IMG/VR virus record: IMGVR_UViG_3300022933_000016
Location: 1 to 29,715 of that record
From: a virus
DNA: 29,715 nt
Strand: one strand, 5' to 3'
Of the stretch, positions 205-5,198 are shown piece after piece. The stretch's first letter is position 1, and each line of letters begins with the position of its first letter. The position numbers were made by a program, and so were the translations under genes. Below the pieces are notes generated by a model. The model had not been told where the DNA came from, did no database searches, and worked only from the letters and a program-made list of their open reading frames with translations.

Positions 205-220
205 TGGCATATATCTTGCA
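205..220 (+). promoter_or_regulatory. Sigma-54-like -24/-12 element
   Basis: TGGCATATATCTTGCA has the GG and GC dinucleotides at the canonical 12-bp offset. It faces the minus-strand element at 227-242 across a 6-bp gap, so together they form an inverted repeat. Binding by RpoN is inferred from the motif only. Confidence 0.4.
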
Positions 221-226
221 GGGGGA

Positions 227-242
227 TGCAAGGTTCATGCCG
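227..242 (-). promoter_or_regulatory. Sigma-54-like -24/-12 element
   Basis: Reads CGGCATGAACCTTGCA on the minus strand: full -12 box and -24 core, with C instead of T at the first base. Convergent partner of 205-220. Confidence 0.35.
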
Positions 243-379
243 TTATACCAATATCCGTTGTAAGCTCTTGTGTAGCGATTTAATGCCGTATTATATTGGG
301 CATGCTAGGGCATCAAACCAGTTGAGAACGTGGAAACTGAGAGCCTTATAATACAATAACTTAGAGACATTGCTCTATT

Positions 380-394
380 TGATTATCATTATCA
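380..394. promoter_or_regulatory. Fur-box-like site 1
   Basis: TGATTATCATTATCA matches the 7-1-7 Fur consensus (TGATAAT, any base, ATTATCA) at 13 of 14 positions. It lies just left of the minus-strand sigma-54-like element at 405-420. Confidence 0.4.
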
Positions 395-404
395 ATATGG
401 CGTA

Positions 405-420
405 TGCAAGCATCATGCCA
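405..420 (-). promoter_or_regulatory. Sigma-54-like -24/-12 element
   Basis: Minus strand reads TGGCATGATGCTTGCA, a full match to TGGCAy-N5-TTGCA. Transcription would run leftward across Fur-like site 1, an arrangement that could allow iron-dependent repression. Confidence 0.42.
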
Positions 421-441
421 TAGTCGGTATGGTATATATTA

Positions 442-453
442 TGCTAATGCAAT
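442..453 (+). repeat. 12-bp repeat TGCTAATGCAAT
   Basis: Centre of the composite inverted repeat 430-463: a weak plus-strand sigma-54-like half (430-445, TGG then TATGCT) faces a full minus-strand match (448-463). Confidence 0.5.
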
Positions 454-463
454 AATCATGCCA
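448..463 (-). promoter_or_regulatory. Sigma-54-like -24/-12 element
   Basis: Minus strand reads TGGCATGATTATTGCA, a full match. It pairs with the weak plus-strand half at 430-445 across 2 bp. Confidence 0.42.
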
Positions 464-479
464 AACTCGCCCCTTGACT

Positions 480-495
480 TGGCACATATATTGCA
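480..495 (+). promoter_or_regulatory. Sigma-54-like -24/-12 element
   Basis: TGGCACATATATTGCA has a perfect TGGCAC and TTGCA separated by five bases. Confidence 0.45.
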
Positions 496-504
496 TAGTG
501 TATT

Positions 505-520
505 TGGCATGGTATGTGCT
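505..520 (+). promoter_or_regulatory. Weak sigma-54-like element
   Basis: TGGCATGGTATGTGCT has an intact -24 box, but the -12 box is GTGCT instead of TTGCA. The spacing is canonical. It may be only one arm of the palindromic unit 505-538. Confidence 0.25.
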
Positions 521-528
521 AATGCAAT
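517..528 (+). repeat. 12-bp repeat TGCTAATGCAAT
   Basis: Centre of the composite inverted repeat 505-538: a moderate plus-strand half (505-520, TGGCATG then GTGCT) faces a perfect minus-strand match (523-538). Confidence 0.5.
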
Positions 529-538
529 TATCGTGCCA
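523..538 (-). promoter_or_regulatory. Sigma-54-like -24/-12 element (perfect consensus)
   Basis: Minus strand reads TGGCACGATAATTGCA, matching TGGCACG-N4-TTGCA throughout. It is back to back with the plus-strand element at 545-560: their -24 boxes are 6 bp apart, giving a divergent pair. Confidence 0.48.
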
Positions 539-544
539 TATCTG

Positions 545-560
545 TGGCACGTATCTTGCA
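545..560 (+). promoter_or_regulatory. Sigma-54-like -24/-12 element (perfect consensus)
   Basis: TGGCACGTATCTTGCA matches TGGCACG-N4-TTGCA throughout. The Fur-like site at 573-593 begins 13 bp downstream, covering the expected start site. Confidence 0.48.
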
Positions 561-572
561 AGGACGGTCTAT

Positions 573-593
573 TGATATTGATTCTCATTCTCA
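573..593. promoter_or_regulatory. Fur-box-like site 2 (two overlapping 15-mers)
   Basis: The 15-mers at 573-587 (12 of 14) and 579-593 (11 of 14) match the Fur consensus and are offset by 6 bp, the phasing typical of extended Fur operators. Position relative to 545-560 suggests repression, which is inference. Confidence 0.35.
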
Positions 594-614
594 ATATGGA
601 TGCTGACTTGGTAT

Positions 615-635
615 TGATAATGATTCTCATTATCA
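615..635. promoter_or_regulatory. Fur-box-like site 3 (best)
   Basis: The 19-mer at 616-634, GATAATGATTCTCATTATC, matches the classic Fur box at 17 of 19 positions. The 15-mers at 615-629 (13 of 14) and 621-635 (12 of 14) overlap with a 6-bp offset. Confidence 0.45.
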
Positions 636-638
636 AAA

Positions 639-665
639 ACTATCATCGCTTCGCTATTACTATCA
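639..665. repeat. Second ACTATCA cluster
   Basis: ACTATCA is present at 639-645 and 659-665, 20 bp apart, with GCTTCG between them as in the 57-80 copy. It sits between two Fur-like boxes. Confidence 0.45.
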
Positions 666-666
666 T

Positions 667-687
667 TGATATTGATAATCATTCTCA
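667..687. promoter_or_regulatory. Fur-box-like site 4
   Basis: The 19-mer at 668-686 matches the classic Fur box at 17 of 19 positions. The 15-mers at 667-681 (12 of 14) and 673-687 (13 of 14) are offset by 6 bp. It lies 18 bp upstream of the sigma-54-like element at 705-720. Confidence 0.42.
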
Positions 688-704
688 ACTCGCACAATTA
701 TTCT

Positions 705-720
705 TGGCACGCATCTTGCA
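705..720 (+). promoter_or_regulatory. Sigma-54-like -24/-12 element (perfect consensus)
   Basis: TGGCACGCATCTTGCA matches the consensus throughout. It is the plus-strand element nearest the late genes (about 300 bp away). It converges with 726-741 across 5 bp. Confidence 0.47.
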
Positions 721-725
721 TCCCC

Positions 726-741
726 TGCAAGTACCATGCCA
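726..741 (-). promoter_or_regulatory. Sigma-54-like -24/-12 element
   Basis: Minus strand reads TGGCATGGTACTTGCA, a full match. Convergent partner of 705-720. Confidence 0.42.
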
Positions 742-753
742 TGCTTTTTTCTA

Positions 754-769
754 TGCAAGAATCATGCCT
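754..769 (-). promoter_or_regulatory. Sigma-54-like -24/-12 element
   Basis: Minus strand reads AGGCATGATTCTTGCA, differing from the motif only at the first base. It is the right-most member of the array. Confidence 0.38.
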
Positions 770-891
770 TTTCATTTCCGCTCAGAGTCGATGCCGAAAA
801 GTGGGAATTCACAACGCTTCTTCTTAACCCATCCGTAGAACAACACAATTCCCCAAAAAAAAAATAAAATACAAAAACATGTAAAAAGGGG

Positions 892-920
892 TTGCTTATG
901 TCAAGAAAATATGATACAAT
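892..920 (+). promoter_or_regulatory. Sigma-70 promoter with extended -10, facing the late operon
   Basis: TTGCTT (892-897), a 17-bp spacer, and TACAAT (915-920) preceded by TG at 912-913, giving an extended -10. Poly-A tracts at 853-862 could act as an UP-like element. The first gene starts about 100 bp downstream, leaving a long A/T-rich leader. Promoter assignment is from motif and position only. Confidence 0.5.
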
Positions 921-1027: not shown

Positions 1028-1474
1028 TTGTCCGAAGCTAAAACAGTCTACGAAACAGGAGCGAGTAGAAGTGCGGATGTGAGAGGGGTGCGATATGACC
1101 TAGTACCACCAGAGGGGATTGAGGCAGTTGCAAAAGCCATGTATGTAGGTTCTATTAATCATGGAGATCACAACTGGAAGAAGGGACTCAAACACTCAGT
1201 CTATATAAACCACGCCTTACGGCACATTAATCTTTACATGCAGGGCAAGAGTGAGGAAGACCACATTGGTCATGCACTCGCTAATCTAATGATGTTGGTT
1301 TGGAATGCCAAACACTTGCCAGAATTTAATGATTTAGGTGTGGATAAGTGGAATGAGGATGAAATAGAGGGATTCAACTATGCGGTTAATGCGCCACCGC
1401 CTAAACGACCAGTAGGTCGTCCTAGAAAGAGCGTGCAAACTATATCAAACATAGAGGAGCAACGTAATGAGTGA
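1028..1474 (+). CDS. DUF5664-type dATP/dGTP diphosphohydrolase-like protein with AT-hook-like tail
   Basis: A 148-residue protein resembling the phage DUF5664 family (N-terminal domain of dATP/dGTP diphosphohydrolases, an all-alpha MazG-like fold). The family pattern is visible: GASRS near 11-15, RYDLVPPEG at 22-30, an H-x-x-NWKKG block at 48-53, NHALRHINLY at 61-70, and EDHIGHALAN at 77-86, whose acidic and His residues would bind metal. The likely role is clearing dNTPs or shaping the nucleotide pool. The C-terminus (126-134, KRPVGRPRK) looks like an AT-hook, which I do not recall as standard here. The start is TTG at 1028, chosen for the GGAAGGGGGG ribosome site just upstream. It is the first gene of the late operon and overlaps the next start. 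Enzyme activity is inferred. Confidence 0.72.
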   Translation: MSEAKTVYETGASRSADVRGVRYDLVPPEGIEAVAKAMYVGSINHGDHNWKKGLKHSVYINHALRHINLYMQGKSEEDHIGHALANLMMLVWNAKHLPEFNDLGVDKWNEDEIEGFNYAVNAPPPKRPVGRPRKSVQTISNIEEQRNE

Positions 1475-4715: not shown

Positions 4716-5198
4716 ATGAATAAACTATATCAAGAAGAGTATAACTACTGGGCAAAGAAGCTATTTAGAAACGCAGTCTTTAAAGGGGGTTCTGCACCTG
4801 CGGTTGACTATGGAGCGATTAATAGAGCTAACGCACAACGACAAGCCAAGTTACAAGCAGAACGTGATGAACAATTTAGAGTAGAGGGTATCTCTGATTA
4901 TATAGATTATATGTACGACAACCCAGAACAGGAGCGCAGGAGAAGTGCTACAGGGCAGTTCTTTAACGCAATCAGTCCTGGCAAAACACCTAACCAGTTT
5001 CTCAATTCATATAGAGACAACAAGTCTATTACCCTAGCAGATATCAAGAAAGATTCAGGTAAGTACTTCGACAACCGTACTGCACAAGCCTCTGTAAAAG
5101 AAGGTAGAATCAGACTCGGCAAACGTGCGGATAAACCCAATACAGGTGGTTTATTAGGTTCAGCAGAGGCTGATAAGAAACAACTATTAGGAGCATAA
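4716..5198 (+). CDS. Hypothetical protein between terminase and portal
   Basis: 160 residues, soluble and highly charged. Residues 35-60 form a Gln/Arg/Ala-rich probable helix (RANAQRQAKLQAERDEQF), followed by tyrosine-rich and disordered stretches. No signal or membrane segment. It ends one base before the portal start, so the two are co-transcribed. The role is unknown; a minor head or assembly protein is a guess from position. Confidence 0.6.
   Translation: MNKLYQEEYNYWAKKLFRNAVFKGGSAPAVDYGAINRANAQRQAKLQAERDEQFRVEGISDYIDYMYDNPEQERRRSATGQFFNAISPGKTPNQFLNSYRDNKSITLADIKKDSGKYFDNRTAQASVKEGRIRLGKRADKPNTGGLLGSAEADKKQLLGA

Follow-up and report, generated by a model that had tools for sequence, protein, structure and literature searches.

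A two-strand array of sigma-54-type elements and Fur boxes in a phage non-coding region, a possible DNA decoy for host regulators

The window (the whole stretch of 29,715 nucleotides that was analysed) is a virus contig whose portal, capsid, and tail proteins match PHROGs. Its structural proteins show a remote similarity to those of SAR11 podoviruses, e.g., HTVC010P, and the nearest relatives are SAR11 phages (31–35% for the portal protein and about 50–55% for the capsid). No close named relatives were found by DNA comparison. An array of sigma-54-like sites occupies the gap to the left of the first rightward gene, and the GC skew turns at this region. In the sister contig L008, the other side of the array is occupied by leftward genes, one of which encodes a YqaJ-type recombinase. 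The right side of the region in the window is composed as follows:

787..810, plus strand: GTCGATGCCGAAAAGTGGGAATTC, a block adjoining the array on its right and conserved in relatives with and without an array
892..920, plus strand: predicted position of the sigma-70 promoter of the rightward genes (TTGCTT-N17-TACAAT), read by eye and below the scan threshold in the window
1028..1474, plus strand: gene for a protein with a dATP/dGTP diphosphohydrolase N-terminal domain (PF18909); it is the first rightward gene and bounds the array region on the right

Between the array and the rightward genes, the relatives that include this stretch have retained CCCCGAAAA..GGGAATT as such or in a closely similar form. 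A strong sigma-70 promoter is predicted at the same position in the sisters L042 and L044 (TTGACT/TTGACA-N17-TATAAT/TACAAT), and L008 has a sigma-70-like promoter in the leftward direction at 4893–4865. The array would thus probably not be required for basic promoter activity on either flank.

The sites of the array are listed below; the matrix scores refer to the Salmonella promoter matrix described further on.

205..220, plus strand: sigma-54-like site TGGCATATATCTTGCA, exact; left arm of the tail-to-tail pair 205–242
227..242, minus strand: sigma-54-like site CGGCATGAACCTTGCA, one change; right arm of the pair 205–242
405..420, minus strand: sigma-54-like site TGGCATGATGCTTGCA, exact; matrix score 19.7 (median of real promoters 19.8)
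448..463, minus strand: sigma-54-like site TGGCATGATTATTGCA, exact; matrix score 21.7
480..495, plus strand: sigma-54-like site TGGCACATATATTGCA, exact; matrix score 18.0
505..520, plus strand: sigma-54-like site TGGCATGGTATGTGCT, variant -12 box; left arm of the tail-to-tail pair 505–538; matrix score 17.6
523..538, minus strand: sigma-54-like site TGGCACGATAATTGCA, exact; right arm of the pair 505–538; matrix score 22.6
545..560, plus strand: sigma-54-like site TGGCACGTATCTTGCA, exact; matrix score 19.4
705..720, plus strand: sigma-54-like site TGGCACGCATCTTGCA, exact; left arm of the tail-to-tail pair 705–741; matrix score 18.9
726..741, minus strand: sigma-54-like site TGGCATGGTACTTGCA, exact; right arm of the pair 705–741
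754..769, minus strand: sigma-54-like site AGGCATGATTCTTGCA, one change

The original prediction, made from this DNA alone, had described eight full matches to TGGCAy-N5-TTGCA and two sites with one change (227–242 and 754–769, both on the minus strand) in a non-coding region. The pattern scan of the window returned all eight at the coordinates and on the strands given, and both one-change sites are real. The eight exact matches all lie within 205–769, with no others in the 29,715 bases, while 100 dinucleotide shuffles of the window gave a mean of 0.03 exact matches and a maximum of 1. The region was also called non-coding rightly in substance. It contains a 144-aa frame (404–838), which shows only 32% identity to a frame of the sister L045 although the underlying DNA is shared. 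A coding origin of this frame was rejected, as it has no Pfam match and the weak identity tracks the repeats.

A weight matrix was derived from 26 Salmonella promoters of sigma-54 with ChIP support (PMC3844500) and applied to the window. Seven window sites reached the 10th percentile of the real promoters by this matrix. All seven lie in 403–722 and none was found in 1001–29715, whereas the first-order Markov controls of the array held on average 0.01 promoter-grade sites. The correlation with the Salmonella promoter profile at the positions outside the anchoring was 0.71. The motif was also learned in nine related contigs with TGGCA as the sole anchor. In these contigs, TGG[CT]A is followed by TTGC at a single distance in 46 copies and at any other distance in two copies at most. 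The learned motif has Y6 in 100%, G/A7 in 90%, T12 in 95%, and T13, G14, C15, and W16 (A/T) in 100% of the copies. Meanwhile, in other phage lineages, when TGGCAY alone was demanded of the third elements found with pairs, N5-TTGC continued in 166 of 193 (0–1 at the neighbouring spacings), with G7 in 74%.

The sigma-54 -24/-12 identity claimed originally is thus strongly supported by the spacing, the full motif profile, and the Salmonella matrix. The spacing is the most strictly kept feature in the family and in other lineages, and therefore the situation that would speak against sigma-54, namely relatives that keep the palindromic arms and lose the GG/GC spacing, is excluded. Judging from the sequences, we conclude that the array sites are very probably elements of the sigma-54 type, predicted to bind this factor.

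The recurrence of the design was examined in uncultured viral contigs using the pair pattern TGGCAY-N5-TTGC, gap, GCAA-N5-RTGCCA. Such tail-to-tail pairs were found in at least 120 stretches of viral contigs; the spacers one base shorter or longer gave 6 and 1 stretches, respectively, and the contigs concerned hold no sigma-54 site. A pair with a third element was found at least 120 times in the viral contigs versus 11 times in 257 Gb of bacterial and archaeal genomes, which does not give an exact enrichment, as the viral figure is a lower bound and the size of the viral collection in bases is not stated. The pair arrays seen in bacterial genome contigs are few and come mostly from four contigs of one Deltaproteobacteria MAG (L264, L266, L268, and L271), with L270 in addition; they may belong to a phage, a repeat element, or chromosomal regulation.

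The contigs with sites fall into 64 protein-sharing groups, which is an upper bound on the number of lineages, with the genomes examined in part. In 25 of these groups, the sites form clusters of six or more. The array groups include relatives of Caulobacter phage RW as well as remote relatives of Roseobacter podoviruses, and the proteins adjoining the arrays are not widely shared among groups apart from terminase-like ones. Whole-record scans of 28 phage records gave 204 exact sites versus 2 for the reversed pattern. The same scans gave no sites in two SAR11 phages of the same broad group; to our knowledge, SAR11 hosts are without RpoN. Among cultured phages, PaGz-1 (P. aeruginosa PAO1), XD2, ventosus, UAVern, and Bitten have a conserved pair in the same intergenic slot, NoPa (P. 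putida KT2440) has this pair in a weakened form, and KoPa-4 has lost one arm. Some cultured phages carry one pair and one or two single sites only, and Vibrio phage D260 carries a small array. A composite palindrome query returned few named phages only (Vibrio phages D260, D254, and D51, and a spurious RNA phage).

The literature searched, with few subscription journals and no bioRxiv in it, does not describe phage genomes with arrays of sigma-54 sites or with decoys for regulators. In this respect, the initial remark that no described phage has this layout agrees with the literature, but the layout is not unique, since it recurs in many phages. As far as this literature goes, the anatomy of the array is new.

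It should be noted that two-strand repeat arrays in a non-coding gap also look like iterons or operators. The sites might therefore belong to another protein of the phage or host, e.g., a replication initiator or a phage repressor, and merely resemble sigma-54 sites; the DnaA boxes near some arrays (see below) and the turn of the GC skew at the region speak for this. We consider it quite improbable in view of the full sigma-54 profile including W16, Y6, and G/A7, the strict spacing, and the presence of the same pair design in phages of RpoN-bearing Pseudomonas hosts. No protein beyond terminases stands next to the arrays across lineages. Iterons are group-specific repeats with a cognate initiator; here, in genomes examined in part, one motif was found across the 64 protein-sharing groups, and only terminase-like neighbours were shared.

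The geometry of the pairs is narrow: 140 of the 149 distinct pairs have 3–7 bp between the inner boxes, with 0–14 bp allowed in the search. With such a strict gap, two holoenzymes would hardly be able to occupy one pair together. The face-to-face design may stop any transcript escaping or may act as a two-way promoter. As face-to-face pairs are inverted repeats, they could in principle reflect a nucleic acid structure (a hairpin, terminator, RNA element, or packaging site) instead of protein sites. However, the spacers of the two pair arms are less complementary than their column composition predicts (0.34 versus 0.50 and 0.17 versus 0.32 at the first two positions), so hairpins seem to be avoided, and many sites are unpaired or head to head. 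The array has no Rfam match. A hairpin or terminator was rejected on account of this anti-correlation of the arms and the Rfam result, and the structural explanation as a whole is largely refuted.

Besides the sigma-54 sites, the same stretch of the window contains three strong Fur boxes and a weaker one, which had been overlooked originally:

381..399, minus strand: weaker Fur-box-like sequence, 4 mismatches to the 19-mer, with GATAATGATAATC on the minus strand
574..592, plus strand: predicted Fur box GATATTGATTCTCATTCTC, 3 mismatches
616..634, plus strand: predicted Fur box GATAATGATTCTCATTATC, 1 mismatch
668..686, plus strand: predicted Fur box GATATTGATAATCATTCTC, 2 mismatches

Three matches to the 19-bp Fur palindrome GATAATGATNATCATTATC with no more than three mismatches are to be compared with an expectation of 0.02 for the whole window. 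With one to three changes from the 19-mer, the boxes are like known Fur boxes; unlike them, three to four are found in about 300 bp among sigma-54 sites, with no obvious promoter beneath. Fur boxes were seen in relatives as well as in the window, and no NtrC box was found in the window. The Fur-box-like 24-mer at window 664–687 is matched between genes in about 140 T5-like Salmonella/Escherichia phages; in the one such phage looked at (L278:1501–1524), it lies just upstream of a small gene. Another motif, ACTATCAt/ACTATCAC, is repeated at 45–75 and 638–667 of the window, so that it flanks the array and also sits inside it, and it is common to the sisters L002, L008, and L045.

The phage contigs were scanned for the boxes of other regulators, the near-array sequence making up about a tenth of the sequence scanned. 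With at most one mismatch, 26 NtrC boxes were found near arrays versus 3 elsewhere (0.2 for shuffled half-sites). The Fur core was found 12 times near arrays, in 7 lineages (0.6 for shuffled half-sites), and the DnaA box 47 times (1.1 for shuffled half-sites). The enrichment of LexA boxes near arrays is weak, as shuffled half-sites score as well, and no enrichment near arrays was observed for CRP, FNR, ArgR, PurR, TrpR, and MetJ boxes. The NtrC enrichment at two mismatches was discarded, since it is confounded by the array letters and a control palindrome was enriched too. Some lineages have perfect NtrC boxes on the upstream side of sigma-54 sites, and part of these boxes are located between -66 and -150 relative to the inferred starts. 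Within about 320 bp, L159 combines a sigma-54 pair and a Fur-like box with seven perfect NtrC boxes.

Several neighbourhoods of this kind were recorded. Non-coding regions of the Caulobacter phage RW relatives (L159:700–1250, L084:2480–3100, L087:1–360, and L177:1870–2250) have perfect NtrC boxes, sigma-54 pairs, and Fur-like boxes, together with a lac-operator-like palindrome GTGAGCGCTCAC. Clusters of the exact DnaA box (TTATCCACA) adjoin sigma-54 arrays in L202:1013–1090, L148:2548–2633, L079:9082–9141, and L286 near 2080–2150, where they are possibly origins or DnaA decoys. LexA-like boxes (CTGTATAAAATTACAG and similar) are present on both sides of a seven-site sigma-54 array in L179:1844–2303, L203, and L219. 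In the Pseudomonas phages L287:500–740, L288:480–720, and L290:480–720, repeated AACTGGACAGTTTTT and TTAGCA..GCTA-type motifs stand beside the sigma-54 pair.

Two explanations of the array had been offered originally, a bank of activator-dependent promoters for the left and right genes and a decoy array. The decoy fits better, and the promoter bank fits less, as the sites have no orientation, the phages have no activator gene, a separate sigma-70 promoter exists, and the boxes of other regulators are mixed in. In the promoter scheme, host enhancer-binding proteins (e.g., NtrC) would drive two-way sigma-54 transcription of phage genes from the face-to-face pairs, with nitrogen or stress tuning and iron control by Fur. 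The arrays are indeed often placed between divergent operons (62 loci between divergent genes, 23 tandem, and 8 convergent), where paired sites would transcribe both ways, and the GC of the -12 box is kept as in real promoters. Meanwhile, 165 sites point towards the nearer gene and 181 away from it, and the outermost sites of the arrays behave similarly (48 towards and 64 away). A sigma-54 activator gene was found in none of 26 array phages and a sigma-54 gene in none of 27; the window itself is devoid of an NtrC box. The rightward genes of the relatives have their own sigma-70 promoter, and so do the leftward ones in L008. In addition, ten or more sites far exceed the need of a promoter, and sisters swap the array for unrelated repeats in the same slot. 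In other lineages, perfect NtrC boxes combined with sigma-54 pairs resemble nitrogen promoters, some at promoter-like distances, and so the promoter explanation, unlikely as we consider it, keeps a sizeable minority of the probability and is the chief alternative to the decoy.

The position between divergent modules would also suit a silent roadblock or insulator, in which parked sigma-54 holoenzymes would keep the early module apart from the late one and prevent read-through or cross-talk between promoters. The paired sites are free of hairpins, and sigma-54 is known to repress some sigma-70 promoters (PMC4551910). Nevertheless, the flanking transcription runs away from the array, which leaves little read-through to stop, some arrays are in tandem contexts, and the Fur, NtrC, and DnaA boxes are not explained by it. 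We give this explanation a low probability.

The contents of the slot change among relatives. When the window was compared with L045, the left sites aligned one to one, while the right part swapped Fur boxes and sigma-54 sites. More distant relatives have unrelated palindromic repeats in the same slot. In L036:4719–4920, L062:3504–3706, and L023:250–460, the slot holds arrays of a palindrome about YGTCA-N6-TGACG (e.g., CGTCAATGATTTGACG), and in L005:5218–5546 it holds TGCCTCATTTTGAGGCA twice exactly along with two partial copies. This turnover fits a slot that is a cassette with contents tracking the host, the repeats of these relatives being matched to no regulator. On a wider scale, we tentatively propose, with somewhat less than even odds, that many unrelated phages carry swappable non-coding sponge cassettes of consensus operators (for sigma-54, variously for NtrC, Fur, and DnaA, and perhaps for LexA), the contents of which follow the host. 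Such cassettes would act against the host without any protein, by sequestering several of its global regulators together.

For the region of the window, the reading that we prefer, with a probability of about one half, is that of a DNA decoy that would sequester sigma-54 and other host regulators to the benefit of the phage. It is based on the design of the sites and their recurrence, on the fact that the phages lack activators and the sites lack orientation towards genes, and on the enrichment of NtrC, Fur, and DnaA boxes near arrays. As in a decoy locus, clustered consensus sites lie in non-coding DNA and are unlinked to a promoter. The weakest point of the decoy reading is that a pure decoy need not favour such closely spaced pairs. 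Moreover, one pair with one or two single sites, as in some cultured phages, would suffice for titration only at a high genome copy number; the arrays are mostly between divergent genes, where promoters belong too; and in some lineages NtrC boxes lie at promoter-like distances upstream of the sigma-54 sites.

According to the proposed mechanism, every copy of the genome would bring in three to four Fur boxes along with about eleven sigma-54 sites of high affinity. During replication of the phage DNA, the sites would come to outnumber the few sigma-54 molecules of the host and would compete for its Fur. With tens of genome copies, an infected cell would contain several hundred sites for sigma-54; the number of sigma-54 molecules in E. 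coli is on the order of 100. The factor or its holoenzyme would be parked in closed complexes, which would remain silent as they are not acted on by an activator and many of the sites are face to face. The sigma-54 regulon of the host (the phage-shock response, flagella and surface structures, and nitrogen stress) would thereby lose its sigma factor, and Fur-repressed host genes would be released. The phage would probably benefit in that the host loses its PspF-driven phage-shock response as well as the sigma-54-dependent surface structures used as phage receptors.

Several published findings form the background of the decoy reading. Sigma-54 is able to sit repressively on DNA (PMC4551910), and E. 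coli regulators are titrated by tens to hundreds of decoy copies (PMC7826281). The roles of this factor include the phage-shock response (PMC3844500) and the cell exterior (PMC3162934), and a mutation of rpoN in P. aeruginosa led to phage resistance (PMC11877940). No anti-sigma factor is known for sigma-54 (PMC3861889), and a DNA decoy would therefore be a fitting tool.

The elements of the array share with sigma-54 -24/-12 promoter elements the TGGCAYR-N4-TTGCW consensus, the spacing, and the tolerated variants. They differ in forming arrays of up to about ten sites on both strands, often face to face 3–7 bp apart, which are not oriented to genes and occur in phages without activator genes. 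The datA locus of E. coli, a non-coding cluster of DnaA boxes thought to hold a host regulator, resembles them in its clustered consensus boxes, and some of the array regions hold DnaA clusters too. Unlike datA, the arrays are located on phage genomes and are directed at sigma-54, Fur, and NtrC, with titration here only proposed. T4 AsiA and T7 Gp2 are phage anti-sigma proteins acting against sigma-70 or RNAP. Host transcription would similarly be disabled by the array, through occupation of a sigma factor or the polymerase, but in the form of DNA against sigma-54 rather than a protein against sigma-70 or RNAP. Synthetic transcription-factor decoys also titrate a regulator by multi-copy consensus sites (PMC7826281), whereas the phage arrays are natural, viral, and aimed at a sigma factor.

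Phage takeover has been studied almost wholly via proteins. If the arrays prove to be promoters after all, control of so many phages by sigma-54 would still be new with respect to the literature searched. If the decoy reading is true, disarming of sigma-54 by DNA only would represent a new class of host-takeover element, one that escapes gene-based annotation and yet can be read from the sequence alone. The conserved pairs in cultured phages make this a testable prediction in laboratory Pseudomonas strains, and, if it holds, the infection by marine phages would be linked to the nitrogen and iron regulation of their hosts.
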